63,431 nucleotides of DNA from Clostridia bacterium (lineage in GTDB: Bacteria; Bacillota; Clostridia; Christensenellales; Aristaeellaceae), in the NCBI GenBank assembly GCA_017429695.1, contig JAFROK010000056.1, positions 1 through 63,431 on the forward strand. The letters run 5' to 3'. Positions 21,628 to 48,344 of this stretch are shown one piece after another. The notes beneath the pieces are model-generated. The model did not search any database. It was not told where the DNA came from and saw only the letters and a list, made by a program, of their open reading frames with translations. Both the position numbers and the translations under genes were made by a program. Each line of letters begins with the position of its first letter. Positions within the stretch are counted from its first letter, which is position 1.

Positions 21628-21697
21628 ATTACAAACTAACCATCTTTAACCCAGAATGCCATGAAATCAGAACGACACCGTAAGGGGAAATGCGGAT

Positions 21698-24676: not shown

Positions 24677-24697
24677 TTCATCAGGGGAGATGAACAT

Positions 24698-26642: not shown

Positions 26643-26670
26643 GGCGGCCGGTTGCAGGATACCGGCCGCC
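26643..26670 (+). other. Strong GC-rich hairpin
   Basis: Perfect 10-bp stem GGCGGCCGGT/ACCGGCCGCC with an 8-base loop, directly after the repeat. No T-run follows (GGTGTTATG), so termination is uncertain. Confidence 0.5.
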
Positions 26671-26705
26671 GGTGTTATGATGGCCCCGGAAGGAGATGGT
26701 TTTGG

Positions 26706-29262: not shown

Positions 29263-29279
29263 TTGTGCGCATCAATGCA

Positions 29280-29317
29280 CCGGCCCGGATCGTGATGATC
29301 CGGGCCGGCTGGTTTTT
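29280..29317. terminator. Terminator between the ABC permease and merR
   Basis: Perfect 12-bp stem CCGGCCCGGATC/GATCCGGGCCGG, 5-base loop, then CTGGTTTTT on the plus strand. It may also terminate the convergent merR transcript. Confidence 0.85.
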
Positions 29318-29322
29318 CAGGT

Positions 29323-29718: not shown

Positions 29719-29740
29719 CGGATCCTCCTGCGGCGTTAAC

Positions 29741-29756
29741 TTAGATTGAACTCTAA
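29741..29756 (-). promoter_or_regulatory. Probable MerR operator
   Basis: Imperfect inverted repeat TTAGATTGAACTCTAA (six of eight pairs at the ends), similar to the AGAGT/ACTCT palindromes bound by MerR-family proteins. It lies between the -10 box and the merR start codon. Confidence 0.55.
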
Positions 29757-29768
29757 CTGCCGGGGGAT

Positions 29769-29798
29769 ATTATAACGGAAAAAACGCCTGTGTGTCAA
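29769..29798 (-). promoter_or_regulatory. merR promoter
   Basis: On the minus strand: TTGACA (29798-29793), 18-base spacer, TATAAT (29774-29769); consensus boxes. Confidence 0.85.
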
Positions 29799-29877
29799 TG
29801 AAAGGGATAGACGATATTGCATGATTTGTGATAATATGTATGGAAACAGACAAACAAAACAGAAACGAGGCAAAAAC

Positions 29878-31245: not shown

Positions 31246-31263
31246 CGGAAGGACCGGAATGAG

Positions 31264-33681
31264 ATGAGCAAAAAGTACGAATGGCTGATCCGGCAGGAGG
31301 ATATCGACCGGTGCCGGGAGAGCATCCGGCAGGGGAACCGTTCTGCCATCCGCCTGATGGCCACGCTGGGAACGATGCTGAGCGCGGTGAACCTGGCGGC
31401 CCAGATGGTGGTGACGAATTTCACCATGCCGGTTTTCCGCAGCTCCCTGCTGCTGGCTTATTTCACGCTGCTGCTTTTTATGGACCGGGTGCTCCTGCCG
31501 GAAAAAAGGCCCGTGGAGACCTGGATGCTGTATGTGTTACAGGTCCCGGTGATGGCGATTTCACTGCTGCTGGGAACGGTGTGGGATCCTGAAAACGTGG
31601 CGACCACATTCCTGATGTTTATGGTGGTTGCTCCGGCGTTTATCATGGACCATCCGAACCACTCGCTGGGTGTTACGGCCCTGTGGTGCGCAGTATTCCT
31701 GGTGGTGGATTCCCAGGTGAAATCCGCCGCGCTTTTCCGGATGGACCTGATGGACACCCTGGAATTCTTTGTGGCGGCAACGGCGGTGACCTATGCCGTG
31801 CTGCGGGTGAGGCTGCGGCTGATGAACAGCATTGAAACCGTGCAGTACAACCTGCGGCATGACCGGGCAACGGACTGCCTGAACCGGAACGCTTTGGATG
31901 AGAAAATCGAGGACTACCTGGGAAAACCGCTGGTGGCGCTGATCGGCGATATTGACCAGCTGACGATGTACAGTGATTTTTACGGCAAATCCATGGGGGA
32001 CGCGATCCTGCACAGCTACACGCGCACCATGATGAAACACTACGGCGAAAACAATACTTATACCAACGGGAGCGATGAAATCCTCGTTCTGACCCAGGAC
32101 ATGGGCATGGTGGACTGCCTGGAGAAGGCGGCGGCCTGCCGGAAGGATACCCATGCCTTCAAGCATGAGGGAATCGAGATTGCGCTGACATTCGCGCTGG
32201 GCTGTGTGTCCGGCCAACCGGAGAGCTACGAAGAACTGGAAAACATGATCCAGATGGCAGTGGTCTTCTGCCACAAGGCCAAGAGCATCGGCCGGGACCA
32301 GACCTGGAGCGGCGTCTATTCGCCGGACGCGTTCCGGAAGGCTGTGGCGGAACGGAATACATCCGCCCATCATGCGATGCCGCATGAGATCAGCCAGCTG
32401 ACCGGACTGCCGCGGCTGTCCTACTTTACCGTGCGGGCGGACGAGATGCTGCGGAACGTACTGAACCCGGCAAACCATCCGGTGATCGGCCATATCAAGC
32501 TGACCAAACTGAAGGATTACAACGATGAATACGGCTATGTACAGGGCGACCAGCTGATTTCCGCCACGGCGCACAAACTGCGGGAAGTGTTTGAAAACCG
32601 GCATTTGTGCCATATCACGGCCGGGCAGTTCTGCGTGATGTGTTACCGCGGTGAGGTGGAGGAACGCATGGAAGCTATGATCCACTGGCTGGAGCAGACG
32701 CGGAAGGGATATATCGTCAGCCTGAAGGCCGGCTTTGCCGAATATACGGGCATGGAAAGCGCCAGTGAACTGATTGATAAGGCGCGGTTTGCCGAACGGA
32801 GCATTATCCAGCGGCCGGATGTGGATTACTGTTTCTACGACGCGGAACTGGACGAGGAGCAGCGCTTCAGCCAGTATGTCGTGAACCATGTGGACGACGC
32901 GATCGCCGGGGAATGGCTGCAGGTTTATTACCAGCCGATCGTCCGGGCGAAAACCGGGCATGTCTGCGGCGAGGAAGCCCTGAGCCGCTGGAATGACCCG
33001 AAACACGGATTCCTGATGCCGTTCCGGTTTATTCCGCCGCTGGAAGAGGCCGGGATGATGCACAAGGTAAACCTGTATGTGGTGGAGCGGGTGCTGAAGG
33101 ATTTCCGGCGCAAGGAGGAACTGGGCATCACCGTGGCCCCGGTATCCGTAAACCTGAGCCGGAAGGACTTCCAGCAGTGCGACATGGTGGAGGAAATCAC
33201 CCGGCGGGTGGCGGCCTCCGGCTATTCCCGGGACCTGATCCGGATCGAGATTACCGAATCCGCCTTCATGGGGGACCAGGAGCTGCTGCGGCGTGAGGTG
33301 CGGCGGTTCCGGGAGAACGGATTCAAGGTCTGGATGGACGATTTCGGCAGCGAGTATTCCACGCTGAACCTGCTGCAGGACATCGATTTCGACATGATCA
33401 AGATCGACATGAAATTCATGCGGAACCTGATGCCGGGCGAAAAGAACTACATCATCGTATCCAGCGTGATCCGGATGGCCCGGGAGATGGGCATTACCAC
33501 GCTGATGGAGGGCATCGAAACAGAAGACCAGCGGGATCTGCTGGTGAACCTCGGATGCGACATGCTGCAGGGATACCTGTACAGCAAGCCGCAATCCTTT
33601 GACGCACTGCTGGAACGGATTCACGAAGGACACGCCATTCCGTTTGAACAGCCTGAAGAGCGGGAGGGATCGGCAGAATGA
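31264..33681 (+). CDS. Membrane protein with two degenerate GGDEF domains and an EAL domain
   Basis: 805 residues. An N-terminal membrane sensor of about five helices (30-190) is followed by two GGDEF-fold domains in tandem (about 200-345 and 385-520). The first has NGSDE, the second TAGQF, in place of GGDEF, so neither should make c-di-GMP. The EAL domain (about 530-790) retains E (EEALSRW), N (VNLSR), E (EITES), DD (DDFGSEYSTL), K (IKIDM), E (EGIET) and Q (QGYLYSKP). Loop 6 has a Gly-to-Glu change (GSE for GSG), which could lower activity. Probable membrane-bound c-di-GMP phosphodiesterase. It is co-transcribed with the flanking cyclases. Confidence 0.83.
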   Translation: MSKKYEWLIRQEDIDRCRESIRQGNRSAIRLMATLGTMLSAVNLAAQMVVTNFTMPVFRSSLLLAYFTLLLFMDRVLLPEKRPVETWMLYVLQVPVMAISLLLGTVWDPENVATTFLMFMVVAPAFIMDHPNHSLGVTALWCAVFLVVDSQVKSAALFRMDLMDTLEFFVAATAVTYAVLRVRLRLMNSIETVQYNLRHDRATDCLNRNALDEKIEDYLGKPLVALIGDIDQLTMYSDFYGKSMGDAILHSYTRTMMKHYGENNTYTNGSDEILVLTQDMGMVDCLEKAAACRKDTHAFKHEGIEIALTFALGCVSGQPESYEELENMIQMAVVFCHKAKSIGRDQTWSGVYSPDAFRKAVAERNTSAHHAMPHEISQLTGLPRLSYFTVRADEMLRNVLNPANHPVIGHIKLTKLKDYNDEYGYVQGDQLISATAHKLREVFENRHLCHITAGQFCVMCYRGEVEERMEAMIHWLEQTRKGYIVSLKAGFAEYTGMESASELIDKARFAERSIIQRPDVDYCFYDAELDEEQRFSQYVVNHVDDAIAGEWLQVYYQPIVRAKTGHVCGEEALSRWNDPKHGFLMPFRFIPPLEEAGMMHKVNLYVVERVLKDFRRKEELGITVAPVSVNLSRKDFQQCDMVEEITRRVAASGYSRDLIRIEITESAFMGDQELLRREVRRFRENGFKVWMDDFGSEYSTLNLLQDIDFDMIKIDMKFMRNLMPGEKNYIIVSSVIRMAREMGITTLMEGIETEDQRDLLVNLGCDMLQGYLYSKPQSFDALLERIHEGHAIPFEQPEEREGSAE

Positions 33682-35078
33682 AAGCAGTCCGGAAACCGCT
33701 GAAAAAGAGCATCCTGAAAGGCATCGGCCTGTTTGTGATTATGCTGTGCGTGGTGCTGGTGAGCGTACAGTATTTCTTCCTGCGCAATACGCTCTATACC
33801 CAGTACCAGAACCGGATGCGGAATATCCTGGGCTATGCGGAAAGCGTGATTGACGCGGACGACCTGGCACAGTGCATCCGGAACAATGAAAAATCCGGCC
33901 GGTATTTCGCGACGCAACAGGAACTGAACGAGATCAAGAACCGGACCGGCGTCCACTACCTGTATGTGCTGATTCCCCTGAACACGAAGCCGGTGGACAA
34001 TATCCGGAACGTGATTGCCGCCGTATCGGATCAGGAAAAGGATGATCCGGACGCCTATGTGGAACTGAACGGGCTGACCGGGAATGACTATACGCCCGAA
34101 GCGGCCCGGAAATACCTGGAAGCCTACGACCGGGACGGCATCACATTCTTTGAGAACGTGACGGAATTCGGGGATGAATATACCGGCATGCTGGTGCTGC
34201 GGGACCGGGAAGGGAACCGGGTGGCGGCGCTGTGCGTGGATTTCGCGGTGGATGAGATCCGTGACCAGGTGCGGGAAAGCCTGCTGGATATCCTGATTGT
34301 TGTGGTGATCCTGGGCCTCCTGTTTGCCACGGTCTTTATGATCTGGGCGGACCGGCATATCATCAAACCCATCCACACGGTGGAGAAGGATGTGGCGGAA
34401 CTGGCCCGGAAGAGCCATACCAGCCGGAATCCGGACGCGATGGTATACAGCGCGGAAGGCATCAGAACGGGCAACGAAGTGGAAACCCTGGCCCGCGCGG
34501 TGGAGCAGATGAGCCTGGATATGCGGGACTATGTCAAGAACCTGGTGGACCAGGAGAAGGAACTGGTGCGGCTCAGTTCCGCAGTGAACCGGGACGCGCT
34601 GACCCACGTCGGCAACCGGAACGCCTACGAGCAGTATGCGGAAAGCCTGCAGCTGAAGATGACAGAGGGCCACCTGGAATATGGAATCCTGCTGGCGGAT
34701 ACGAACGGACTGAAGAAAATCAACGACGAATACGGCCACGACAAGGGCGATATGTATCTGCAGAAGGCGTGCCGCGTGATCTGCGAAGTATTCCACCATT
34801 CGCCGGTTTTCCGGATCGGCGGGGACGAATTTGCGGTGATGCTGGTGAGCGAGGACTACATCAACCGGGAAGCGCTGGTTGACCAGATGCAGACGATTTT
34901 CTACAAATCGGCGGCAGAAGAAACAACGCCGCCCTGGGAAAAGGTCAGCGTGACATACGGGCTTGCCGAATATGACGAGATGAAGGACCGGACGGTCCGG
35001 AACGTTTATGACCGGGCGGAGGACGGCATCCGCGGCAAGAGAGACTGGCTGGCGGAGCATGGTTCACCCGGGAAATAA
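33678..35078 (+). CDS. HAMP-GGDEF diguanylate cyclase
   Basis: 466 residues. A transmembrane helix (about 15-36), an extracytoplasmic sensor (about 36-200, dCache/CHASE-like size), a second helix (about 202-222), HAMP linker (about 222-290) and GGDEF domain (about 300-460) with intact FRIGGDEFAVM. There is no RxxD site at the usual position. It should synthesise c-di-GMP in response to an external signal. The ATG overlaps the EAL gene stop by 4 bases (ATGA), so the antagonistic enzymes are translationally coupled. Confidence 0.85.
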   Translation: MKAVRKPLKKSILKGIGLFVIMLCVVLVSVQYFFLRNTLYTQYQNRMRNILGYAESVIDADDLAQCIRNNEKSGRYFATQQELNEIKNRTGVHYLYVLIPLNTKPVDNIRNVIAAVSDQEKDDPDAYVELNGLTGNDYTPEAARKYLEAYDRDGITFFENVTEFGDEYTGMLVLRDREGNRVAALCVDFAVDEIRDQVRESLLDILIVVVILGLLFATVFMIWADRHIIKPIHTVEKDVAELARKSHTSRNPDAMVYSAEGIRTGNEVETLARAVEQMSLDMRDYVKNLVDQEKELVRLSSAVNRDALTHVGNRNAYEQYAESLQLKMTEGHLEYGILLADTNGLKKINDEYGHDKGDMYLQKACRVICEVFHHSPVFRIGGDEFAVMLVSEDYINREALVDQMQTIFYKSAAEETTPPWEKVSVTYGLAEYDEMKDRTVRNVYDRAEDGIRGKRDWLAEHGSPGK

Positions 35079-35131: not shown

Positions 35132-35978
35132 ATCCTTTTCCGATGATTTCGGTGCTGGAGGTAATGATCAGGAAGGCGGAAGGATCGTTCTTTCGGATAA
35201 AGTTGCGCAGGAGCACCGCCTCGTGGCGGGAAACAACGGTCAGCAGGATCGTTTTCCCTTCGTGGGAATAGACGCCCTCGCCGTGGAGCTGGGTGGCGCC
35301 CCGGTGCAGGGTGCCGGTGATGAAGTCCTCAATCGGCTGCGGGGCGGAAGTGATGATCTGGAAGCATTTTTTGATCATCAGGTTGTCCATGACCACATCC
35401 ATGAACAGGGACTTGATAATCAGGCCCAGGACGGAAAAAAGCCCGGTTTCCATGCCGAAGGCAAAACAGGCGGAGACGGTGATGATGATATCACTGCACA
35501 AAAGGGCGATGCCGATATTCAGGGAGGTATACTTCCGGAGAATCATGGCAATGATATCCGTTCCGCCGGAGGAGGCGTCCAGGTTGAACAGGATCGCGGA
35601 ACCGACAGCCGGCAGGCCGACGGCGAACATGAGCTCCACCAGCGGCTGGGAGGTCATCGGCTGATCCATCGGAACGATGGCTTCCAGCAGCTGCAGCGTA
35701 CCGGACATCAGCAGGGAGGCATAGACCGTTCGGATGCCGAAGGATTTGCCGAAAACCGCAAAGCCGATAATCAGCAGGACCACGTTGATGATGGTGACCA
35801 GCGTGCCCGGGGTAATGGATGGAATATAGTGGCCCAGAACGATAGCGATGCCGGTGACGCCGCCGGTGGAAAAATGATTCGGGAATTTGAAGAAATAGAC
35901 ACCGACGGTCAGGATCAGGATACCGGCGGTGATGAGCAGCCATTCGCGGAGGGGGTTCTGTTTCTTTTCTGATGCCAT
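35115..35978 (-). CDS. YitT family membrane protein (DUF161/DUF2179)
   Basis: 287 residues. Five to six transmembrane helices in the first 200 residues (motif 'FKFPNHFSTGGVTGIAIVLGHYIP' and 'LNLDASSGGTDIIAMIL') followed by a cytoplasmic DUF2179 domain ('HRGATQLHGEGVYSHEGKTILLTVVSRHE...FLIITSSTEIIGKGF'). YitT proteins are widespread in Firmicutes; their transport role is not established. The AAGAAGG SD precedes the ATG. It is flanked by a period-7 repeat upstream and is convergent with the cyclase gene. Confidence 0.9.
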   Translation of the reverse strand: MASEKKQNPLREWLLITAGILILTVGVYFFKFPNHFSTGGVTGIAIVLGHYIPSITPGTLVTIINVVLLIIGFAVFGKSFGIRTVYASLLMSGTLQLLEAIVPMDQPMTSQPLVELMFAVGLPAVGSAILFNLDASSGGTDIIAMILRKYTSLNIGIALLCSDIIITVSACFAFGMETGLFSVLGLIIKSLFMDVVMDNLMIKKCFQIITSAPQPIEDFITGTLHRGATQLHGEGVYSHEGKTILLTVVSRHEAVLLRNFIRKNDPSAFLIITSSTEIIGKGFRGVN

Positions 35979-35997
35979 TTTCGGGACCTTCTTCAGA

Positions 35998-36025
35998 TTA
36001 GTGATAGGTGGTTAGTGGTCAGTGA
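35998..36025. repeat. Period-7 intergenic repeat (copy 4)
   Basis: Four heptamers: TTAGTGA, TAGGTGG, TTAGTGG, TCAGTGA. It lies in the divergent gap between yitT and the giant adhesin. Confidence 0.75.
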
Positions 36026-36143
36026 TTTGCTTTCCTGTTTCCGGTGATCAGTTTATTACGGTTTCGGGAATAAGTAAAGGGTCGGATAATTGACAGTAAA
36101 AATATTACAGATGGGTTAAATAAATCATATATTTTGATGACAA

Positions 36144-36174
36144 TTCACATAAAAAATACGATATCTGGTATAAT
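36144..36174 (+). promoter_or_regulatory. Adhesin promoter with extended -10
   Basis: TATAAT at 36169-36174 preceded by TGG (extended -10); the best -35 is TTCACA at 36144-36149 with a long 19-base spacer. The 250-base gap is AT-rich and also has TTGACA at 36090-36095 without an obvious -10. Confidence 0.65.
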
Positions 36175-36230
36175 ACAATGATTTTGTATACCAAATCCCT
36201 GGGGAATCTGAATGACCGGAGGGAACCGAT

Positions 36231-39200
36231 ATGAACCTGCTTCACCTGATCAGGAAAAAATGGATCATCGTGATCCTGCTGGCGCTGTGCGCAATGGCAA
36301 TCCTGCTGCCCGCTTCTTCGCTGGCGGACGGAAAAGGCGCGACATTCAGCGGGGACGGATGGTACGGAGCGGTCGGCGATGTGGATATTTCCTCATTTGA
36401 GGTCATTCCGGAGTTCAAGCTGGACGTCGAAACCAAATGGAAAGTGATTCCGGTGGGCGTCAGCCTCAAAATGAACTTTACGATCCGGATCGGCGTAAAG
36501 GGCAATTTTGACGTGACTTTTGAAAAGGCCAACCTGCCGGAAAGCACCACGCTCGCCACGAAAATCATTGCCCAGCGGGGCGACCTGTATCAGTACAAGC
36601 TGGGAGATACCCTGTTTGACAATATTCCGAATGTCGGGCTGGTCGGGCTCGATATGAACATGACCATGCTGGGAGGCGCCACCCAGCCGGCCCGGGTGAA
36701 AGGCTCGTTTACAAATTACATTCAGCTGAAGGTCGGAACAGACGGTGCCAGCGCGGACCAGAAAGCGGATTTCACGTTCCATTCCATCGAACCGGAAGCG
36801 GCGAACAAAAGAACGGTGGTTTTCATCGGCGCCAATGTGGCTGAGAAATTCGAAGCAGGTAAAGTCGGCTGGAAACGGTTTTCCTTCGGACCGTTCCTGA
36901 CCGTCGATATGAACTTCATGTCGGGCGGACAGGCGGAAGCGGTGCTGCAGAAAGACGAATGGGGAACATCCGGCGAGGCCTATTATGTTCCGCAGGCCGG
37001 CGGCGATCCGGAACCGGACAGCCTCCATATCTGCACAGAAAACGGAAAGGACGGATGCGTTTCCGGCCAGACCGCGACGATTGAAAATCTCGGGGGCACG
37101 GTTTCGGCACACCTGACGGCACTCGGATTTACCGTTCTCAACAAGGACTGGAGCCTCGGGAACCGCTACATAAAGCGGAATATCCGGGATTTTGTCCAGT
37201 CGCTGACATACGGGGACGGCCTGAAATACAAAAGCGAATGCGATCATATGCTCTACCGGGTGCCGGTCCAGGTGTGGGCGGATTATGCGCATACCGTTGC
37301 CCTGCCTGATGTGCTGATCGGGGTGCCGGGCGTCAGCAGTGAAAACCGGTCGGACGTGGTGAAAACCGGCACGGCAGCCCGGGATGACGCCGTGAGCGAA
37401 GCAGATTTACAACGCTTTTTCCGGGGCTATACCGGATCCAACCCCTACCTGGTAACCCTGTATCCCGGGGATGTGCCGGAAGAGAATGGCAAAGGACGGT
37501 ACAATCTTTACCTGCCCTGGAAGAACGGAAAATACAGCATTGCCACCGACAACTCCGAAAGTGCCGAATACCGGGGCATGGAGGGCAGCGCGCTCCAGCC
37601 GTCCGACATGAAGCGCGGCGCGAACGAAACGGTGCATATCGTGCTGGATTCCGACCAGATGGTTTCCGTTTCTGTAGACAAGAAGTGGCACATTGATTTT
37701 GAGGACAAGGACCGTCCGGACCATGTGGACGTGCTCCTGCAGAAGTGCTCCTATAACGAGACGATGCAGAGCGAATATTTCCGCTGGACCGGCGTGGAAA
37801 AAGCCACCCTGAACGAAGCAAACGGCTGGAAGTATACTTTCAGTGACCTGCCGCAGTACGAAATGGACAGCCAGGGTAAAATGCGGGAAATCAAATACCG
37901 GGTGCGTGAACTGCGTCCGGAGGAGTCGGGCGACGCGATTGCGGACGCGGTCTACATGGCGGAAGCCAATACAATCCAGGTGGCCCAGGGGATCCTGGGC
38001 ATTGACATGGGTGCATATGCCAAAGACAGCCTGCGCGTGGTGAGCGACAAGAAGGACCTGGACAATATCAATATCGCCGGCGCGATCAGGGACGCCGTTT
38101 CTTTGGACGGCCTCTGGAAAATCTGCCAGGATCCGTCGGATTACCTGGATACCTTCGGCAAGAAGATTAAGGAAGTTGACCCGACGGTGGTTTATCCGGT
38201 TGAGGAATATACGTCTGTTACCGGGGAAACCGTTGAAAAACACAACACCAAATACCGGGTGGAGTACAAGACCGAGGAAGGCACGGAAACCCGGCAGGAC
38301 GACAAAATCGTCAAGACCATCCGGACGACCATCAGTAACACGGCCATCCTGGAAATGTCCCTGTACAAGCGGTGGCTGATGTTCGGTGACGCGGAAAAGC
38401 CGGAGGAAGTCTACCTGGCGCTTTGCTACCGGGTGAAGGAAGATTACCGGGATGCGATTCCCGATCCGTCCGGCATGGTGGAAAAGTTCGGCGGGACCTG
38501 GATTCCGGTGCTGAAGCCCCTGGAAGGAAAGAAGATCAACATCCTGGAAGCGCTGGGCCTGGATATTCTTTCACAGTTTGACATTTCAAGCCTGGCGGAC
38601 GTTCCGTTTGCGATTACGAAGGTGGAAGCGCCGAAGGAAGACGATAATCCGCTGACCGCCTGGAACGCGAAGTTCGTTGTGAAAAAATACGACTACCTGG
38701 GCATCGAAGGAATTCCGGTGGAATTCGAAGCGGCGGAATTCTCCAGCGTGATCCTGCAGGACGCGGTGAAGCTGGCAACCGGGTTTGACCTGCCAATTTC
38801 CACTTCCATTATCGATTTCTTCAAGGGAAAACCGTACATCACCGTTCCCGGGAAAATGTACTGCCTCCCGGTGATCGACAACGACTGGGAACTGACCGGC
38901 AACGTGATCAACACCTGGTATGACGGAAGCACCGACAACGAAAACACAACGGCCGTCGGCGGCACCAAGTACTGGGCCAACGACAAAGAGGAGGACCGTC
39001 CGGATACGCTGGATATTACGGTTACCGGAATACCGGCCGGCGGCGCTGGAACTTCCTTCAGCAAGGTCATTACGCTGAAAAAGGCCGATTATAAAGGACT
39101 CAGCGACTGGCCGTGGGCCCTGAAGAGCTCCGATGCGGACGTGAAGGCCTGGCTGGCAGCGAACGGCCTGCCTGAGGATTCGGACCTGAACGGCGGGCAG

Positions 39201-42200
39201 TTCATCTGGACGGTATCTGAAACGGTGCCTGCCGGATATTCCGGCGCTTCAGACGGAACCAACCTGGTCAACACCAGGGGCGACAGTCCGAAGATCCGGA
39301 TTGTCAAGAAGTTTGCGGATATGATTCCCACAACGGAAGCGGCAAACTGTGCATTCGACCTGTATATCACCGATCCAGACGGGAACAGGACCCACCTGAA
39401 ACAGGTGACGGGCGACGCGGCCCGCGGTGCGGAAGGAACGATCACATACACCTGTCCGGATACCACGCTGCCCATTGCCGGAAAAGATATCAGCAGGTTC
39501 AAAGTAACGGAGGAACCGGTTGACACCGGTTCGGAATTCGCCTGGGCATACCAGGTATCCGGCCCCGTCATCACGACGGAAGGCGGCAGCCCGGTGTATA
39601 TCTTCACCGTTACCAACCGCTACCGGAAGAGCACGGCTGAGGTGACCGTCCGGAAGGAATGGCAGAACGACGACGAATCCGGCCGGCCGGCCAGCCTGGA
39701 CGTGGCGCTGAAGCAGGACGGCAAAGTCATCCGGACGCTTACCCTGACGAAAGCTTCCGGCTGGGAAACCAGGGTAGCGGATCTGCCGGCAGTTGATACG
39801 TCCACGGGGAAAGCTATTTCCTACAGCGTCAGCGAAGTGAACGTGCCGGAAGGCTATGCCTGCACCGGCATGAAGGTATCCTCCGGCAGGGAAGGCAGCG
39901 TGACGAAGGTCCTGATTACGGTGACCAACGAAGCGGCCGGCAGCGGCAGTTTCGTGACCCTGGAAGGCACCAAGACCTGGGATGACAAGGATTCTGCCAA
40001 CCGGCCCGGGAAGCTGATGATCTCCGTGGCGCAGAAAGGCGGACGGATCGTCGGGCAGCCGTTGGAAACAAACGCCGGAAAAGGCTGGAAGTGGCGGTTT
40101 ACGAACCTGCCCCGTTACGACGCAGATGGAAATGAAATTGAATACCAGGTTTTCGAAAATATGGACAGCGGCTCTGCCTACAATGTGAATTACCATACGC
40201 CTGTCTTCAATGAAGCCGCGAAGACATGGACCGCGGATATCACCAACAGCACGGAGACGGTCAATATCGGCGTGCGCAAGGTGTGGCAGGATGAAAACAA
40301 CCGCTACGGCAAACGGCCGGAACAGGTGATGGTATACCTGCTCCGGTATACCAAGGACTCGGATGGAAACATCATCGATTTCGAAGCTGTTGACGTGGCA
40401 GTGCTGGACGAAGCCTGCGGCTGGGACCACAACTTCAGGGGCCTGCCGAAGACGGACGGCAAAGGAAACACATATGCCTACTTTATCGACGAAGATCCGG
40501 CGAACGGATACGATTCCGCGCTCAGCCCGGAAGAACCCATTACCGAAGGCGGATTTACCCTGACCAACACACTGACGGAAAAATATGTCAACATCCGGGT
40601 GAAGAAAACCTGGGAAGGGGATGATGCGGTTCAGCAGGCACGGCCGGTGTATGTGACCGTACGGCTGACCCGGATCATGGACGGGAAAGAAGTGCCGGTG
40701 GCTGAAACCGGTGAAGACGGGCAGGAACACCAGGCGATCCTGATCCTGCGGGCCGCGGACAACTGGGAAGGCGTATTCAGGGGCCTGCCTGCGTCAGATG
40801 AAAACGGGAAGCCCATCACCTATTCCGTGGACGAAGACCCGGTGAGCGGATACAGCGATGAGACGGTCAGCGGCGACCAGGAACATGGATTTGTGATTAC
40901 CAACAAATTCGATAACCAGATCATCATCCGGGTGAATAAAGTATGGGACGACGCCGGACTGGCGGATGTGAAGCATCCGGAATCCATCGGGTATGAAGTG
41001 ACCGCGGCGGGCGGAACAGCCAGAATCGGCACCCTTGACGGGGACAGCGCATGGACTGATGAATTCAAGGCGGACAAATTTGACAGCCAGAAGCAGATCA
41101 TCAACTACCAGATCCGGGAAACCACAGACCTTTCAGGAGACTATGCGGTCAGCTGCACGAAGCAGGAATCCGACACGGGAATCGTATTCACCATTACGAA
41201 CCGCCGGCTCTACCGGGACCTGACGATTACCAAGGTATGGGATGACCATTCCGACCTGCTGAAAAACCGTCCCGCAGACGGTGCCGTTGAAATTGACGTG
41301 TACGCCGACGCTGCAAAGCTCACGGGCGAAGGATTCCCGGTGCGCATTGTGACGGAGGCCGGAAAGAACGAAGGGTCCGTAACGGTGCGGCTGCCCATCC
41401 GGGACGAAAACGGCAACGTGATCCCCTATTTCGTGGAGGAAAGCACGAAGCTGAAAGGCTATACGGCATCCGTCAGCGGCAGCATGACCCAGGGCTATAC
41501 CGTGACCAATACCCTGGAAAGAACGGATATCACCGTGAAAAAACGGTGGGACGACGATCAGAACGCCGCCGGCATGCGGCCGGAAAGCGTCAATATCCGG
41601 CTGGAAGCGGCCAGCGGCGGGGAAAAGACCACCATCGATACAGTGCGGCTTAACGAGGATAACGGATGGACATATACCTTTACCGACAAGGGTACCTGGA
41701 TGAACGGCGAGCCGTGCACCTATACGGTGGAAGAGGACCCGGTAAACGGCTATTCCCCGACGATGACCGAAAAGCAGCAATATGATTTTGTGATCACGAA
41801 TGAAGCGGGCCGGAAGGAAATGACCATTACCAAGGTATGGGGAACCGGATATATCGGAAACACCTATACGGACGGCAGCCAGAAGATTCCGGACAGCGTG
41901 ACGATTGAGATCCTGCGCAGGGTTAAGGGCGAGGAATCCTATACGCCTTTCCAGAAGGTGACGATGACGGAAGGGGACCTGCTGAAGGGTTCAGATGGAA
42001 AACCGATCCTGTCGGTGCATGAGCACTACCAGTGGCAGGTTCGCTGTGCAGTACAGGAATACAATGAAAAAGGCGAAAAATACGAATACACCGTGCGGGA
42101 GCCGAAGCTTCCGGACGGCGGCAGCGCCCAGGTAAGGCGCAATGGCCCGTATGACTTCAGCGTGGTGAACCAGATCGGCAAACGGAACAGCAACTATATC

Positions 42201-45200
42201 CTGGTGAACGTGGTATGGGAGGATATGGAGAACCGCTACAACCTGCGGCCCACATTCGTGACACCTGATATCATCTTTATGGACAAGGCAGGGGACGATC
42301 ACCTGTCGGTGGACGAAAGTGAAGAATGGCGCGCGGTTTATGAAACGGAGCGGAAGGTAGCCGGCGTTGCCGCGGATACGGTGAAGCAGTATTCCAGCCG
42401 CGTCGTTCAGGAAGACGAAAAGGTATATACGATTTACTACACCCTGACGCCGCCGGAAATGACCAACCTGATTGTGACCAAGGTATGGAACGACGGGGGA
42501 GACGCAAACCACAGGCGGCCGGAAAGCATCACCGTGGGGCTGTACCGGCAGGCTTCAAACGAAAAAGCGGCGCAGCTGATCCGGACCCACAAACTGACAG
42601 AAGAGGATCAGTGGACGTATATCTTTGAGGACCTGCTGACCCGGGAAGCGGGCGACAGCGAAAGCCGGTATACGTATTCCGTTCAGGAACTGAACGTACC
42701 GGACGGATATACCGCTGAGGTCAAAGCCGGAAAGGAATCCACCAGCCAGCAGGGCAATACTTACCGGAGCTGGACGATTACCGATACCTTCCCGCTGACT
42801 GAAGTCACGGTGACCAAGGAATGGGATGACAGCGGCGTGGCTGAATATACAAGGCCCGAAGCTGTTGAAATCCGGCTCCTGGCGGACGGGGAGATGTGGG
42901 ATCGTTACGTTTTGACCGAGGACGAAAAATGGACCTGTACGTTCCGGAATCTCCCGAAACTGCGGAATGACGGAACCGAAATTGAATATACCGTGGCCGA
43001 AAACCGGATTCCCGGTTATGAGGAACCGGTGATCAGCGGCAGTGCGAAGGACGGTTTCACTGTGAAAAACACGGCGGATGTGCAGGACATCACCGTAACG
43101 AAAGTATGGGAAGACAACGGTGATAAGTGGCAGGCGCGTCCGGAAAGCGTGAAGATCACCCTGAAGGGCGACGGCACTGAGATGGGGAGCTTTGAAGCCA
43201 AAGACGGGCAGCTGAAGCACACCTTTACGGATCTGCCGGTCTGCCGGCCGGACGGAAGCGAGATCCGCTACAGCGTGGAAGAGGAAACGGTTCCCGACGG
43301 CTACAAGGTGGATTATTCCGGCTCTGCGGAAGCCGGGTTCACGGTGACCAACCGCTACGCGCTGACGGATATCACGGTGACAAAAGTATGGGACGATGAG
43401 GATGAGAACGGCCAGGTTTCCCAGTACAGGCCGGCTGAAATAACCGTATACCTGCTGTCCGACGCGAAGACAGAAGGACAGATGGAACAGGTGATGAACG
43501 GTACGGAACCCCTCAGCCTGACGATCCGGGCGGATGCCGGCGGCAGCTGGAAAGGCGCCTTTAAGGACGTACCGGTCTATGCCAAAGGAAACCGGCTGAT
43601 CGAATACAGCCTGGAGGAAGACGAAAAAGGACTCGGGCAGTATGCTGAGCCGATGATTATGGGCACGGGATACGATTTCACGGTCTTCAACTGGCTGCTG
43701 AATGAACAGACCGTCATCATTGTTGACAAGGAATGGGTGCGGGATGATGCGGGCGACCGTCCGGAATCCGTGGCGTTTAAGCTGCTGCAGAATGGCGGAG
43801 ATTTTATTAACGAAACAATTTCGGCCAATCCGGTGATTACGGACGACCTGAAGAGCCTGTCAAAGCCGTGGCGTACGGTGATCATTGCCAACCGTTATGA
43901 CAACGACGGGGAGATCTATGACTACAGCGTCCAGGAAACGCCGGTGAACGGATATGTGACGAAGGTGGTTGAAAATTCGGACGACGGAGAAGGATCCTGG
44001 CATCACTTTACCATCACCAATACCGCCAAATCGGCCCCGGTGACCATTACGGGCACCAAGACGCTGACCGGCCGCGAAAAGACGGACGAAGATGTGTTTG
44101 CCTTCGGCCTGTATGATGAGGCAGGCAATGAAATTGCCACGGCTGAAAGCGACCGGAACGGCCGGTTCAGCTTCCCGGAATTCAGGCGGTTTACCGAAGC
44201 AGATGCCGGCAGGACCTTCACCTATACCCTGAAGGAAATCAGCGAAGCTGAAAACGGCATCATTCCTGATCCGACCGTATATACCATCACCGTTACGGTG
44301 ACGGCGGACAGCGACGGATTCGTGACAGCGGCGCTGAGCGAAAACGCGGAGAAATTGACCTTCACCAACCGGTATGAAGCCAAAGGATCGGTCACATTTG
44401 CGGGAACCAAGACCATTGCCGGCCGCGAACGGAACGACAGCGATATCTATTCCTATGAGATTACCGAACCGGATACCGGTAAAACCTGGACGGTGAAGAA
44501 CGATACGGCCGGAAAGATCCTTTATCCGGAGATATCCTATGTGCTGAATGACAAAACAAACGATACGGGCCTGCATACTTACGAGGTGCGGGAACTTGCC
44601 ACCGGCCGGGATGACGTTATGAAGGACGAGACCGTCTATACGGTGACGGTGAACGTAACGGATGACGGCGAAGGCCGCCTGAAGGCGGAGGCAGGCGAAA
44701 ACGCCGCGAAACTGGACTTTACCAATGAAGCCGGGTCCAGCGTGACGGTCACATTTGCCGGAACGAAGCGCGTGATCGGCCGGGAAATGGACGACGAGGA
44801 TATCTATATCTTTGATGTTTCGGAGGTCGGTACGGAGAACCGGTGGACCGTACAGAACGATGCCCAGGGCAAAATCCTGTATCCGGAGATCACTTATTTC
44901 ATGGGCGTTACACAGGATGATACCGGGATCCATACCTACAAAATCCGGGAAGATGACACAGATGAGGATGGCGTGACCATTGACCGGACCGTATATACCG
45001 TGCGGGTGGAAGTGGCGCCGGACGAAACCGGAAAGCTGCAGGCGAAGGTCAGCAACAACGCCGACGCCCTGGACTTCGTCAACACATACGGCGTTTCGAC
45101 CAGCGTCACCTTCCGCGGCACCAAGACGGTGACCGGACGCGACTGGGCGGAGGATGACATCTATACGTTCGAAGTGTCCGAGGCCGGCACGGAGAACAAA

Positions 45201-47141
45201 TGGACGGTTCAGAACGACAGCTCGGGCAAAATCCTGTATCCGACCATCTACTATGTAAAGAACCAGGAACAGGACGATACGGGCATCCATACCTACCGGG
45301 TGCGGGAAGATGACACGGACGGCGACGGCGTGACCGTTGACACCCGCGAGTATACGGTGATCGTTGAAGTGACGGACGACGGATGGGGGAACCTGACCGC
45401 TGAGCCCAGCGGCGACGCCTGGGAACTGGACTTTGTGAATATTTACGGCGCTTCCGGAAGCCTGACCTTTGAGGGAACCAAGACGGTAACCGGCCGGGCG
45501 TGGAAGGAAGACGACCTGTATGTCTTCACGATCCGGGAGAAGGGCAACGGCAGCCACAACCAGTGGACGGTCCTGAACGACAAAAACGGAAAAATCCAGT
45601 ATCCGACCATTCAGTATTCGCTGGCGGACCTGGGCGTGCACGTGTACGAGGTACAGGAAACGGATGCGGACCGGGACGGCCTCCGGACTGACCGGACGGT
45701 ATATACCGTGGTGGTGGATGTGGAAGACGATGAATGGGGACACCTGGTCATTACTCCCACGGAGAATGCGAAGGCGCTGAACTTTGTGAACCGCTATGGT
45801 TCAACGGGCAGCATTACATTCCAGGGAACCAAGTACATTGCCGGGCGCGAAATGGACAGCGATGATGTCTTCAAGTTTGAGATCCTGGAGAAGGATACGC
45901 TGGAGAGATGGCCGGCGGAGAACGACAGCACCGGAAAGATCCGCTTCCCGGAAATTGACTACGTGGTGGACGGCGAAACGGACGATACAGGCATTCATAC
46001 CTATTACGTGCGGGAAATCAATTCGGACGTGGAGCAGATCGGAACGGACAACCGCCTGTATGAGGTGACCGTTGAGGTAACGGACAACGGGGATGGAACA
46101 CTGGCGGTGAAAGCCAGCGACAACGCCAAAGCCCTGAATTTTGAAAACCAGTTCGGCGCCACCGGCAGCTTCTACTTCAGCGGCGTCAAGACGATTGAAG
46201 GACGGGATATCCGGGAGGACGATATCTTCCTGTATGAGATTGCGGAAACCGGCACGGACAACAAGTGGTACTTTACCAACAACGGGGAAGGCCGGATTGT
46301 TTATCCGAGAATCGGGTTTGTGAAGAACGCCAGGGTGGATGAGACGGGCAAGCACACCTATACGGTGCGGGAAGTGAAAACCGACCGGAACGATATGGTG
46401 TTTGATGAAACCGTGTATACGACCACCGTGGAGGTTTCCGAAGGCAAGGACCAGACCCTGGTGATCAAAACCGGCGACGAGGTTAAACAGGCGAATTTCA
46501 GCAATGTGCCGATCTATACGATTACATATGATCCCAACGGCGGCACAATCGACGGACAGACGACGCCCGTGACGGAAAAGCACATGTACGGAACGGTGAT
46601 CACCATCCGGAAAGCGCCGGTACGGTCCGGGTATGATTTCCTGTACTGGCAGGGCTCGGCATACCAGCCCGGGGACAAGTATACCGTAACCGGAGACCAT
46701 ACGTTCACGGCCCAGTGGGAGGAACATGAGTCCCCGCAGCCGTCTCCGGACTACAGGTTTACCTTTACCAAAAAGTGGTCCGGCGGGCATGAGGACAGTA
46801 TCGACTGGACGCTGTACAAGGAAGACGGGACGACAGCCCACAAGAAATTCAACAAAAAGATCGTCAGTGACAGCCTGTGGGAGTATGAAGCCTGGTTTGA
46901 ATCTGATCAGGACTACTACATTATCGAGAATGTGCCGAAGGGATACCAGGTCCGCTACGAAAATGTCGGCGCGTACGCGGGCGTCACCGATCGCTGCTAC
47001 AACGGCGGCACGATCATCAACTCCAGAACGCCCAAAACCGGCGACAATACGCATACACTCCTGTGGGTGGTATGCACGGTGCTCGGACTGGCCGGTATCA
47101 CAGCGTTTGTGATCATCCGGAAACGGCGGTCCGGAAAATAA
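36231..47141 (+). CDS. Giant isopeptide-domain cell-wall adhesin, sortase substrate
   Basis: 3636 residues. Signal peptide (MNLLHLIRKKWIIVILLALC), a unique N-terminal domain to about 470, then about 19 Cna-B type domains (signature V.KxW.D....RP..v.v.L), most between about 477 and 2600. Seven regular Spy0128/FctA-like domains of about 118 residues follow (starts near 2602, 2721, 2840, 2958, 3078, 3195, 3314; motif GTKT..GR.). An InlB-type repeat (3429-3500) and a final Cna-B (from about 3508) precede the sorting signal TPKTGD (about 3600), a hydrophobic helix and a basic tail (RKRRSGK). Many Lys/Asn pairs suit isopeptide bonds. This should be a long, rigid wall-anchored fibre. The sortase gene follows by 67 bases. 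Confidence 0.92.
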   Translation: MNLLHLIRKKWIIVILLALCAMAILLPASSLADGKGATFSGDGWYGAVGDVDISSFEVIPEFKLDVETKWKVIPVGVSLKMNFTIRIGVKGNFDVTFEKANLPESTTLATKIIAQRGDLYQYKLGDTLFDNIPNVGLVGLDMNMTMLGGATQPARVKGSFTNYIQLKVGTDGASADQKADFTFHSIEPEAANKRTVVFIGANVAEKFEAGKVGWKRFSFGPFLTVDMNFMSGGQAEAVLQKDEWGTSGEAYYVPQAGGDPEPDSLHICTENGKDGCVSGQTATIENLGGTVSAHLTALGFTVLNKDWSLGNRYIKRNIRDFVQSLTYGDGLKYKSECDHMLYRVPVQVWADYAHTVALPDVLIGVPGVSSENRSDVVKTGTAARDDAVSEADLQRFFRGYTGSNPYLVTLYPGDVPEENGKGRYNLYLPWKNGKYSIATDNSESAEYRGMEGSALQPSDMKRGANETVHIVLDSDQMVSVSVDKKWHIDFEDKDRPDHVDVLLQKCSYNETMQSEYFRWTGVEKATLNEANGWKYTFSDLPQYEMDSQGKMREIKYRVRELRPEESGDAIADAVYMAEANTIQVAQGILGIDMGAYAKDSLRVVSDKKDLDNINIAGAIRDAVSLDGLWKICQDPSDYLDTFGKKIKEVDPTVVYPVEEYTSVTGETVEKHNTKYRVEYKTEEGTETRQDDKIVKTIRTTISNTAILEMSLYKRWLMFGDAEKPEEVYLALCYRVKEDYRDAIPDPSGMVEKFGGTWIPVLKPLEGKKINILEALGLDILSQFDISSLADVPFAITKVEAPKEDDNPLTAWNAKFVVKKYDYLGIEGIPVEFEAAEFSSVILQDAVKLATGFDLPISTSIIDFFKGKPYITVPGKMYCLPVIDNDWELTGNVINTWYDGSTDNENTTAVGGTKYWANDKEEDRPDTLDITVTGIPAGGAGTSFSKVITLKKADYKGLSDWPWALKSSDADVKAWLAANGLPEDSDLNGGQFIWTVSETVPAGYSGASDGTNLVNTRGDSPKIRIVKKFADMIPTTEAANCAFDLYITDPDGNRTHLKQVTGDAARGAEGTITYTCPDTTLPIAGKDISRFKVTEEPVDTGSEFAWAYQVSGPVITTEGGSPVYIFTVTNRYRKSTAEVTVRKEWQNDDESGRPASLDVALKQDGKVIRTLTLTKASGWETRVADLPAVDTSTGKAISYSVSEVNVPEGYACTGMKVSSGREGSVTKVLITVTNEAAGSGSFVTLEGTKTWDDKDSANRPGKLMISVAQKGGRIVGQPLETNAGKGWKWRFTNLPRYDADGNEIEYQVFENMDSGSAYNVNYHTPVFNEAAKTWTADITNSTETVNIGVRKVWQDENNRYGKRPEQVMVYLLRYTKDSDGNIIDFEAVDVAVLDEACGWDHNFRGLPKTDGKGNTYAYFIDEDPANGYDSALSPEEPITEGGFTLTNTLTEKYVNIRVKKTWEGDDAVQQARPVYVTVRLTRIMDGKEVPVAETGEDGQEHQAILILRAADNWEGVFRGLPASDENGKPITYSVDEDPVSGYSDETVSGDQEHGFVITNKFDNQIIIRVNKVWDDAGLADVKHPESIGYEVTAAGGTARIGTLDGDSAWTDEFKADKFDSQKQIINYQIRETTDLSGDYAVSCTKQESDTGIVFTITNRRLYRDLTITKVWDDHSDLLKNRPADGAVEIDVYADAAKLTGEGFPVRIVTEAGKNEGSVTVRLPIRDENGNVIPYFVEESTKLKGYTASVSGSMTQGYTVTNTLERTDITVKKRWDDDQNAAGMRPESVNIRLEAASGGEKTTIDTVRLNEDNGWTYTFTDKGTWMNGEPCTYTVEEDPVNGYSPTMTEKQQYDFVITNEAGRKEMTITKVWGTGYIGNTYTDGSQKIPDSVTIEILRRVKGEESYTPFQKVTMTEGDLLKGSDGKPILSVHEHYQWQVRCAVQEYNEKGEKYEYTVREPKLPDGGSAQVRRNGPYDFSVVNQIGKRNSNYILVNVVWEDMENRYNLRPTFVTPDIIFMDKAGDDHLSVDESEEWRAVYETERKVAGVAADTVKQYSSRVVQEDEKVYTIYYTLTPPEMTNLIVTKVWNDGGDANHRRPESITVGLYRQASNEKAAQLIRTHKLTEEDQWTYIFEDLLTREAGDSESRYTYSVQELNVPDGYTAEVKAGKESTSQQGNTYRSWTITDTFPLTEVTVTKEWDDSGVAEYTRPEAVEIRLLADGEMWDRYVLTEDEKWTCTFRNLPKLRNDGTEIEYTVAENRIPGYEEPVISGSAKDGFTVKNTADVQDITVTKVWEDNGDKWQARPESVKITLKGDGTEMGSFEAKDGQLKHTFTDLPVCRPDGSEIRYSVEEETVPDGYKVDYSGSAEAGFTVTNRYALTDITVTKVWDDEDENGQVSQYRPAEITVYLLSDAKTEGQMEQVMNGTEPLSLTIRADAGGSWKGAFKDVPVYAKGNRLIEYSLEEDEKGLGQYAEPMIMGTGYDFTVFNWLLNEQTVIIVDKEWVRDDAGDRPESVAFKLLQNGGDFINETISANPVITDDLKSLSKPWRTVIIANRYDNDGEIYDYSVQETPVNGYVTKVVENSDDGEGSWHHFTITNTAKSAPVTITGTKTLTGREKTDEDVFAFGLYDEAGNEIATAESDRNGRFSFPEFRRFTEADAGRTFTYTLKEISEAENGIIPDPTVYTITVTVTADSDGFVTAALSENAEKLTFTNRYEAKGSVTFAGTKTIAGRERNDSDIYSYEITEPDTGKTWTVKNDTAGKILYPEISYVLNDKTNDTGLHTYEVRELATGRDDVMKDETVYTVTVNVTDDGEGRLKAEAGENAAKLDFTNEAGSSVTVTFAGTKRVIGREMDDEDIYIFDVSEVGTENRWTVQNDAQGKILYPEITYFMGVTQDDTGIHTYKIREDDTDEDGVTIDRTVYTVRVEVAPDETGKLQAKVSNNADALDFVNTYGVSTSVTFRGTKTVTGRDWAEDDIYTFEVSEAGTENKWTVQNDSSGKILYPTIYYVKNQEQDDTGIHTYRVREDDTDGDGVTVDTREYTVIVEVTDDGWGNLTAEPSGDAWELDFVNIYGASGSLTFEGTKTVTGRAWKEDDLYVFTIREKGNGSHNQWTVLNDKNGKIQYPTIQYSLADLGVHVYEVQETDADRDGLRTDRTVYTVVVDVEDDEWGHLVITPTENAKALNFVNRYGSTGSITFQGTKYIAGREMDSDDVFKFEILEKDTLERWPAENDSTGKIRFPEIDYVVDGETDDTGIHTYYVREINSDVEQIGTDNRLYEVTVEVTDNGDGTLAVKASDNAKALNFENQFGATGSFYFSGVKTIEGRDIREDDIFLYEIAETGTDNKWYFTNNGEGRIVYPRIGFVKNARVDETGKHTYTVREVKTDRNDMVFDETVYTTTVEVSEGKDQTLVIKTGDEVKQANFSNVPIYTITYDPNGGTIDGQTTPVTEKHMYGTVITIRKAPVRSGYDFLYWQGSAYQPGDKYTVTGDHTFTAQWEEHESPQPSPDYRFTFTKKWSGGHEDSIDWTLYKEDGTTAHKKFNKKIVSDSLWEYEAWFESDQDYYIIENVPKGYQVRYENVGAYAGVTDRCYNGGTIINSRTPKTGDNTHTLLWVVCTVLGLAGITAFVIIRKRRSGK

Positions 47142-47208
47142 GAAAACAGCATGGTCAGGCCTTGCCGGAAAGCCGACAGGGCCTGATTTCATCAGACGGA
47201 GGAGACCT

Positions 47209-48195
47209 ATGAATCAGCAGCAATGGAGCGGCAGGCCGCATTCCCACCCGAAGCGGAAACTGCGGGGCGGGGAGATTGCCCTGCTGGCGGTATCCGTTCT
47301 GCTGCTGGCTGCCGGAATCATCGGCCTTACCGGCGTATTCCGGGATCATCGGGCCGCCGAGGAGACGAACCGGGAACAGCGGGAAATCTACTATGCGGAA
47401 CCGGAGAATTCGGAAGCGCCGGAGAACACCGAAGAGCCGGACAGCGCCCTGCCGGAACCTTCCGCAGGGATGGCATCCGGAACAACGGCCGGGGAAACGA
47501 AAGCGCCCGATAACGGGACGCCGGCCTTTCCGGTGGATGAAAACCTGCCGCCGGTGCCGTATCCCGGCAACCCGTCCCTGGCCGTCAGCGACCGGTTTCA
47601 GCGGCTGAAAGCGGAAAACCCGGACATTATCGGATGGATCCGGATCGGGAAGATGCTGGACGAAGCCGTGGTGCAACGCAACAATACGTTCTACATGGAC
47701 CACGATTCCTCCGGGCGGCAGAACGTCAACGGCGCGGTTTTCCTGGATGAAGCCATTTCCCTGGAGACACGACCGTATACCCTGATCCTTTACGGGCACA
47801 ACATGAAGAGCGGCGCCCGGTTCGGATGCCTGCGCAACTATGAGAACACCGGCTTCTACACCAGTTATCCCTTCATTATATTCAACACCCGGTATGAGGA
47901 CGGGGAATATGTCGTCTTTTCCGCCTGCGTAGTCCGGACGGAAACAGGGGAACCGCAGTATCTGGATCTGTTCCGCGCGTATTCCCGCAGCACGGAGGAA
48001 CGCCGGCAGGCCATTGAACTGCTGAAAGCGGAATCCCGGATTCCGGCCAGGATTGACGTTCGGCCGGAGGACCAGCTCCTGCTGCTGGTGACCTGCGTGG
48101 AAAGCGATGAGGAGCGGCGGGTGGTGGCCGCCAGGAGAATCCGGGACGGCGAGAACAGGGAAACCCTGCTGGAGCAGATTCAGGCGGACCGGTAA
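47209..48195 (+). CDS. Class B sortase
   Basis: 328 residues. An N-terminal transmembrane helix (about 22-45) and a Pro/Glu-rich stalk (about 50-120) precede the catalytic domain. The class B block 'PDIIGWIRIGKMLDEAVVQRNNTFYMDH' is followed by His197 (YGHNM), Cys296 (LLVTC) and Arg303/Arg304, completing the triad. Sortases cleave a sorting signal between Thr and Gly and attach the protein to peptidoglycan or to another subunit. Gene order makes the giant adhesin (TPKTGD) its natural substrate. The SD is GGAGGAG. A terminator follows. Confidence 0.9.
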   Translation: MNQQQWSGRPHSHPKRKLRGGEIALLAVSVLLLAAGIIGLTGVFRDHRAAEETNREQREIYYAEPENSEAPENTEEPDSALPEPSAGMASGTTAGETKAPDNGTPAFPVDENLPPVPYPGNPSLAVSDRFQRLKAENPDIIGWIRIGKMLDEAVVQRNNTFYMDHDSSGRQNVNGAVFLDEAISLETRPYTLILYGHNMKSGARFGCLRNYENTGFYTSYPFIIFNTRYEDGEYVVFSACVVRTETGEPQYLDLFRAYSRSTEERRQAIELLKAESRIPARIDVRPEDQLLLLVTCVESDEERRVVAARRIRDGENRETLLEQIQADR

Positions 48196-48218
48196 CAGAC
48201 AAGGGAAGACAGAAATGC

Positions 48219-48267
48219 CAGGGGGACATTTCCAGGCAGCATGAGGCCGGGAAACGTCCCCCTGTTT
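48219..48267 (+). terminator. Terminator of the adhesin-sortase unit
   Basis: Stem CAGGGGGAC/GTCCCCCTG (9 bp), extended inside by further pairing (TTTCC/GGGAAA), followed by TTTCAT; the T-tract is weak. Confidence 0.7.
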
Positions 48268-48277
48268 CATGCTGTCC

Positions 48278-48344
48278 GATTAAGAAATGGTTAAGGATTG
48301 CGCAAGGGTCGGGTTAAGACTTTCAGGAATGAATGGTTTATGAT
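48278..48344 (+). promoter_or_regulatory. Direct-repeat response-regulator box and -10 upstream of the ABC exporter
   Basis: Three direct repeats GATTAAG (48278-48284), GGTTAAG (48289-48295) and GGTTAAG (48312-48318), spaced 11 and 23 bases (about one and two helical turns). A TATGAT -10 (48339-48344) begins 20 bases after the last repeat. This is the layout of OmpR-type activator sites; the likely binder is the regulator at 54607 (inference). Confidence 0.6.

Follow-up and report, generated by a model that had tools for sequence, protein, structure and literature searches.

A giant Cna-B/FctA protein with a predicted sorting signal and a linked class B sortase gene in a Clostridia bacterium

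Results

The adhesin-sortase locus

We analysed a 63,431-nucleotide stretch of DNA from a Clostridia bacterium of the family Aristaeellaceae (assembly GCA_017429695.1, contig JAFROK010000056.1), hereafter the window. This contig belongs to a draft genome of 3.03 Mb with 88% completeness and 0.98% contamination. The window encodes a putative giant adhesin, whose stalk is built of Cna-B and FctA domains, and a class B sortase (Table 1). The adhesin open reading frame (ORF) spans positions 36231-47141 of the forward strand, codes for 3636 residues from an ATG and has a good ribosome-binding site, as judged by eye. Both ORFs were found exactly where a preliminary description, made from the sequence alone, had placed them. 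That description had the sortase following immediately; it is the next gene downstream, but starts 67 bases past the adhesin stop codon. Base composition is even over the adhesin gene and its near flanks.

Table 1. Features of the adhesin and sortase genes, in window positions.
Feature	Residues	Position	Strand	Evidence or remark
Signal peptide and adhesin start		36231..36326	+	By eye: basic start, hydrophobic stretch, ASSLA
Head	~33-475	36327..37655	+	Homologue alignment; three cysteines 268, 276, 337
Neck: four irregular or insertion-bearing Cna-B-like stretches, one (480-563) firm	478-1133	37662..39629	+	
Fourteen regular Cna-B domains	1135-2602	39633..44036	+	
Seven tandem FctA (Spy0128-like) domains	2603-3426	44037..46508	+	
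Listeria-Bacteroides (InlB-type) repeat	3428-3500	46512..46730	+	Pfam Flg_new
Terminal Cna-B-like anchor domain, conserved C3589	3504-3599	46740..47027	+	Alignments, AlphaFold2
Sorting motif TPKTGD	3600-3605	47028..47045	+	LPXTG_anchor above cut-off
Membrane-spanning stretch, basic tail and stop codon		47046..47141	+	Sequence
Intergenic hairpin, adhesin/sortase		47153..47188	+	-24.6 kcal/mol for 47142-47208, z -3.1
Class B sortase	328 aa	47209..48195	+	Pfam, NCBIfam, PDB sequence matches; H197, C296, R304
Strong hairpin 3' of sortase		48208..48276	+	-39.2 kcal/mol for 48196-48285, z -5.4

Domain architecture and isopeptide triads of the stalk

Pfam recognised Cna_B in 13 stretches of the adhesin (E=1.4e-190), FctA in seven (E=1.5e-73) and Flg_new (E=1.3e-10), and the NCBIfam model strep_pil_rpt matched seven stretches. 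A profile built from the adhesin's own domains gave 15 good Cna-B domains between residues 480 and 2599, each of at least 47 bits. About 19 had been described; 15 are firm, and to arrive at 19 one has to add three irregular stretches and the terminal domain. Counted by eye within residues 709-1133, the irregular stretches scored 4.0 bits (912-958) and -2.7 bits (1085-1130) or gave no match (709-907), and the terminal domain scored -3.1 bits on the same profile, its assignment coming from the structure model only. Residues 601-899 of the neck match a relative from roe deer rumen (L024, E=3.6e-66). The seven evenly spaced FctA domains of the preliminary description were recovered by Pfam, NCBIfam and the own-domain profile alike. 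Their motifs start at residues 2608, 2725, 2844, 2963, 3082, 3199 and 3318, with spacings of 117, 119, 119, 119, 117 and 119 residues. The InlB repeat and the TPKTGD signal are also present as described, with the order amended in that the last Cna-B-like domain follows the InlB repeat. Pfam found no collagen-binding A domain in the adhesin.

Isopeptide triads were scored in 23 domains, namely the seven FctA, the 15 regular Cna-B and the terminal domain, leaving out the three irregular neck stretches, and were found by sequence in 22. K8, E67 and N111 are invariant in all seven FctA domains. By pattern, 13 of the 15 regular Cna-B domains carry Lys/Glu/Asn, the domain at 2079-2187 carries Lys/Glu/Asp and that at 1990-2070 carries none; in the insertion-bearing domain 478-710 either Glu 560 or Glu 659 could be the triad residue. 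K3514, E3566 and N3597 make up the triad of the terminal domain. The Cna-B profile puts K, E and N onto the Staphylococcus aureus Cna B domains (1d2p). With the FctA profile, FctB-type and T-antigen pilins of the FCT region were matched (best E=6e-6), but these alignments cover just the middle of the profile and leave its Lys and Asn outside. Except for the Cna-B domain at 1990-2070, then, the stalk of isopeptide domains that had been described stands, and isopeptide bonds are predicted to form in its triad-bearing beads.

According to PMC12617251, Cna_B and FctA are two families of the same CnaB-like fold, belonging to one clan and sharing a Lys/Glu/Asn triad. The "two classes" of the preliminary description are therefore two families of one fold. 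Their mixture in one chain, which had been called unusual, is common in the order. FctA occurs in 25 of 151 genomes of the order, including this one; Cna_B is found in 11 of the other 24, and 22 of their 46 FctA frames, in 9 genomes, also carry Cna_B, as matched by contig and open-frame length and not by frame coordinates. There is also a precedent in Streptococcus parasanguinis, where SpaA and FctA domains are reported among three collagen-binding proteins that all have B repeats, the FctA carrier not being specified (PMC7565896).

The C-terminal anchor module

The features of a sortase substrate are all present, namely an LPXTG-like motif, a hydrophobic stretch, a basic tail and, by eye, a signal peptide, and LPXTG_anchor (TIGR01167) scores 18.2 bits against a cut-off of 15.9. 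The K, E, N and Cys of the terminal domain are invariant in the seven sequences aligned, and this Cys has no partner Cys within the window's own terminal domain. An AlphaFold2 model of the domain (pLDDT 89.3) has a CnaB-like strand order. With this model, VIA-align ranks isopeptide pilin domains highest, at modest Z, and Foldseek returned no match with E under 0.001. The model suggests a CnaB-like fold.

The motif does depart from LPXTG in its first residue, as the preliminary description had it, but such a departure is ordinary: in 23 readable relatives (window included) this residue is V in 15, I in 6, L in 1 and T in 1, V or I being the rule. In Clostridioides difficile the class B sortase SrtB cuts SPKTG and PPKTG (PMC4155245). 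The closest adhesin relative (L024, from the same genome as locus L182) ends in PPKTRD, with Arg replacing the motif Gly, and the sortase beside it is 50% identical to that of the window; PPKTRD represents either a draft-sequence error or a lost signal.

An extra Cys pair was observed in the anchor domains of three relatives (L028, L027 and L035), where CYVIE or CYVVE occurs together with DRCC. The anchor domains of the window, L024 and L033 have YYIIE with DRCY. The rule is not strict, since L025 combines CYVVE with DRCY.

The class B sortase

The downstream gene product comprises a membrane anchor and a Pro/Glu-rich linker, both seen by eye, and a catalytic domain; the linker corresponds to the Pro/Glu stalk described earlier. 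It scores 28.4 bits on PF04203 (cut-off 26.6). Among 15 PDB sequence matches, 12 are named sortase B or C60B and the others are BA4783, Lmo2181 and a hypothetical exported protein; the best is S. aureus SrtB (E=7.5e-17), with whose H, C and R the residues H197, C296 and R304 align. We take these positions to be the catalytic His, Cys and Arg of class B sortases. The assignment to class B is supported by the Pfam score, the nearest structures and the three residues. With 102.7 bits on sortase_srtB (TIGR03064), under the equivalog cut-off of 153.75, the sequence places the enzyme among SrtB kin outside the core equivalog.

The N-terminal head

The three head cysteines are kept in all three aligned homologues, and the head is 35 and 37% identical to two relatives. 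It was found in 8 of 308 family genomes, this one included, some of the matches being partial. For none of three members did Pfam give a family up to E 10, and NCBIfam gave none up to E 1. A three-sequence profile against the PDB gave a best E of 0.057; its three rows, viral protease and polymerase entries, were taken as chance. The AlphaFold2 single-sequence model (pLDDT 32.9) had no usable fold.

Stalk composition in relatives

The layouts of relatives were drawn with one set of profiles (C, Cna-B; F, FctA). The window protein reads head-15C-7F-InlB-anchor with the sortase next to it, and L182 reads head-26C-InlB-anchor in a 3643-residue frame, also with the sortase next. L213 has a related head, 9C and 1F, an InlB repeat, the anchor and an adjacent sortase; L181 has a related head, 17C and 1F, an InlB repeat and the anchor, with no sortase nearby. 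In L214, where no head was found, the order is 2C-15F-2C-anchor with the sortase next, and L215 has mixed C and F domains and the anchor, with no sortase found in the available stretch. From these sequences, the anchor module, often with the sortase, appears to stay in relatives while the bricks of the stalk differ and have multiplied locally. The near-equal length of the window and L182 proteins, a single pair, may be due to chance.

The FctA domains group by protein (2 changes versus 6.6 when shuffled). Six of the seven in the window are joined in a single clade (local support 98); the closest relatives of the first are FctA domains of another protein (L038). The window Cna-B domains do not group by protein (13 changes versus 13.2 when shuffled) and differ among themselves as much as from those of other proteins (29% within, 27-30% between). 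The simplest reading of these sequences would be a Cna-B stalk that one FctA domain entered and in which it then multiplied. A recent amplification of the window stalk at the DNA level was rejected, Tandem Repeats Finder having returned, for 36200-48200, a single short row within the sortase linker and none in the adhesin gene.

Linkage of sortases and their putative substrates

Relatives of the window sortase were found in 62 of 80 family genomes, and a ruminant gut site is named in 11 of the 27 titles of its closest named relatives (L024-L050). Linkage was examined in 59 distinct full-length sortases, exact duplicates and fragments having been dropped. An xPxTGD-type protein is adjacent to 27 of them, 30 have none and 2 lack a flank; the adjacency rule also accepts single cases of PPKTRD and VLQTGD, and one of the partners is a downstream gene. 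Seven of the 27 paired sortases are biased because they were fetched through the anchor module, and without them 20 of 50 sortases, counting that of the window, are paired. For a rough comparison, 77 of 4684 six-frame ORFs of at least 100 residues in the sampled loci satisfy a stricter signal rule. On the sortase tree, a quick one with many weak forks and with the seven biased rows included, the pairing label changes 8 times against a shuffled mean of 19.8, and 0 of 500 shufflings were as low. The window sortase falls in a clade of three with L024 and L200 (support 95), each of them next to an adhesin of one and the same type. The preliminary description had proposed a search of related genomes for TPKTG-type signals beside class B sortases; in the relatives covered here, the sortase clade is linked with xPxTGD-type proteins.

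Neighbourhood of the two-gene unit

An opposite-strand YitT-like gene precedes the unit, and an ABC transporter follows the strong hairpin. This hairpin probably marks the end of the two-gene unit; it was not called a terminator by the consensus scan, and promoter and terminator consensus scans gave yields not above chance. The intergenic hairpin could tune the ratio of adhesin to sortase product.

Five GGDEF/EAL (cyclic di-GMP, c-di-GMP) genes lie upstream of the adhesin at 21665-35078. GGDEF/EAL matches occur in just 5 of 88 loci, that of the window among them. No riboswitch, including any for c-di-GMP, scored at the Rfam threshold in the window, and none came up at E 10 in 35900-36300. We thus rejected c-di-GMP control as a conserved feature.

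Discussion

Proposed function and alternatives

Based on the domain order, the triads, the sorting signal, the enzyme family and the gene linkage, all of which are read in the DNA, we favour with moderate confidence the reading that the protein is a giant fibrillar adhesin, secreted and anchored to the wall, and that the class B sortase is genetically linked to it. The adhesin would be secreted, and each triad-bearing Cna-B or FctA bead would form one intramolecular Lys-Asn (or Lys-Asp) bond, the cross-linked beads making up a long stiff stalk that would resist stretching and proteases. The membrane-held sortase would cut TPKTGD between T and G and attach the cleaved chain to peptidoglycan. 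Pulling force would be handed straight to the wall by the terminal CnaB-like bead, with its presumed bond-forming Asn three residues short of the motif, and the distal head of about 440 residues would do the binding. Here we infer bond formation, cleavage and anchoring by the adjacent sortase, adhesion itself and the existence of a ligand.

The preliminary description had considered a dedicated motif-enzyme pair likely. As gene linkage such a pair is likely, as indicated by the clustering of the pairing on the sortase tree; as specificity it is a candidate reading, and several observations weigh against an exclusive pair. The sortase is directly downstream in only 11 of 23 strong anchor-module genes, although among the other 12 the flank of L205 is just 307 bases long, and an ORF with a weaker likeness to a sortase lies upstream in L204 and L205. 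In a relative from the same genus the anchor module comes with no sortase within 4.35 kb downstream. The genome itself has three sortases (contigs C2, C6 and C54), all matching that of the window, versus sorting signals on at least six contigs, including C6, C29, C37, C42 and C57; six is a lower bound because the pattern sees only PKTGD- and TKTGD-type motifs. These observations, together with the single C. difficile SrtB that serves several motifs (PMC4155245), would also agree with shared anchoring, in which the three class B-type sortases are interchangeable housekeeping enzymes for VPKTGD, LPPTGD and TPKTGD, and adjacency reflects gene history. We regard this as possible and less probable than the linked system, given the clustered pairing and the clade of three sortases beside one kind of adhesin. 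Moreover, the other paired sortase of the genome, on C6, sits on another branch, and in its neighbour the match to the anchor module is confined to the sorting signal. The pairing is thus likely as gene linkage and, judging from the sequences, would not be exclusive.

Alternatively, the protein might be no adhesin, its head being an enzyme or matrix component and its cross-linked chain a fibre for protection or scaffolding. In favour of this, none of the domain families searched matches the head, and its ligand is hypothetical. Against it, fibrillar adhesins have been described with just this build, a unique distal head, a long stalk of stalk-domain families and a wall anchor (PMC8286594, PMC9210967), and we consider this alternative improbable. 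Polymerisation of the adhesin by the sortase, into a pilus like that made by SrtC1 from FctA or into ladders like those of SrtB and AbpA, seems very improbable. FctA domains do lie beside a class B sortase here, SrtC1 of group A Streptococcus is a class B sortase that polymerises FctA (PMC7900414), and SrtB makes AbpA ladders in vitro (PMC4974636). However, a single chain is of giant size as it stands, a scan of ten neighbours showed no pilin- or signal-peptidase-like protein, and the cluster consists of two genes, adhesin and sortase, instead of the several pilin genes with a pilin sortase that characterise pilus clusters. In addition, of the 15 PDB matches S. aureus SrtB comes first, and the last is 3psq, which we take to be SrtC1 (Spy0129).

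Comparison with known systems

The wall-anchored adhesin that we propose resembles the Cna-type fibrillar adhesins of S. aureus in its stalk of isopeptide beta-sandwiches, in the alignment of its triads to 1d2p and in its secretion and sorting signals. It differs in the absence of a Pfam collagen-binding A domain, in its head of no recognised family, in its 3636 residues and in the adjoining class B sortase. The S. parasanguinis collagen-binding proteins likewise have B repeats, SpaA/FctA domains among them and an LPXTG anchor, but they are 724, 932 and 1642 residues long with a collagen-binding A domain, and the available text mentions no linked class B sortase (PMC7565896). In oral streptococci, the adhesin gene abpA is also directly upstream of a class B sortase gene, and SrtB is needed for wall display (PMC4974636). 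AbpA differs from the window adhesin in its small size, its LPKTS signal and its short AVK tail; the NCBI model for LPKTxAVK-specific sortases, which fits the AbpA tail, scores 55.5 on the window sortase (cut-off 200).

In C. difficile, a class B sortase and the wall-anchored putative adhesins CD2831 and CD3246, with PPKTG/SPKTG signals, form a similar set, in which SrtB anchors CD2831 (PMC4155245, PMC4591827). Like AbpA-SrtB, this set is a precedent for the mode of anchoring proposed here. There, a single sortase serves several substrates, which are controlled by c-di-GMP riboswitches (PMC4591827) of the kind that was not found in the window. The 7651-residue adhesin of Mobiluncus mulieris is another single chain of giant size, in which cross-linked domains of several kinds occur (PMC10619420). 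The FctA pilin and SrtC1 of group A Streptococcus share the FctA domain family and the sortase class (PMC7900414), but form a pilin polymer with accessory pilins and SipA, as opposed to one giant chain.

The discovery is modest, since each class of component has a published precedent. What appears new, as far as the models and alignments allow, is a C-terminal anchor module, with a predicted CnaB-like terminal domain, a conserved Cys and PxTGD, that occurs under Cna-B, mainly-FctA or mixed stalks. The head without known family, in its 8 family genomes, is new as well. In the open-licence literature, where the letters of the anchor module were not searched, we recognised neither a description of this module nor a paper treating the adhesin family, or giant adhesins and class B sortases together, in rumen Clostridia. 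The related head and anchor on 26 Cna-B domains in one species and on 15 Cna-B and 7 FctA domains in another, in chains of almost equal length, provide a natural series on stalk composition. The results also point to a large set of xPxTGD substrates with linked class B sortases in uncultured gut Clostridia, which would be useful for mapping class B sortase recognition beyond the pentapeptide. As a speculation that we hold to be improbable, the anchor module, its bead fused to [VITL]PxTGD, and the sortase clade might constitute a lineage-specific docking cassette. The sortase would then recognise the folded bead in addition to the motif, the Cys would link adjacent fibres at the wall, and entire Cna-B or FctA blocks would be exchanged in evolution above a cassette that itself persists.

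A second tail type in the genome

Other Cna-B proteins of the same genome, two of them giant, lack an LPXTG signal (contigs C30, with L104 and L105, and C40, with L107). After the last Cna-B-like domain they carry a nearly invariant tail that runs from [DE][DE]Yx[TV][PA]L to INHVGDCFD and the stop codon. No membrane stretch was seen in it by eye, no NCBIfam model matched the L105 tail above cut-off, and no paper containing its letters was found. Tails of this type occur in 15 of 150 family genomes, including this one, on frames of up to 10303 residues. Of 20 loci (among L229-L248), 18 end exactly in INHVGDCFD, one in INHVGDCYE and one in INNVGDTFD. This tail is a candidate for an unknown C-terminal sorting or attachment signal and is perhaps more novel than the adhesin-sortase finding. 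Two further Cna-B proteins of the genome (L106, contig C59, ORFs 1-2556 and 2560-6618) stop at EDY[ED]TPL, within the start region of the tail.

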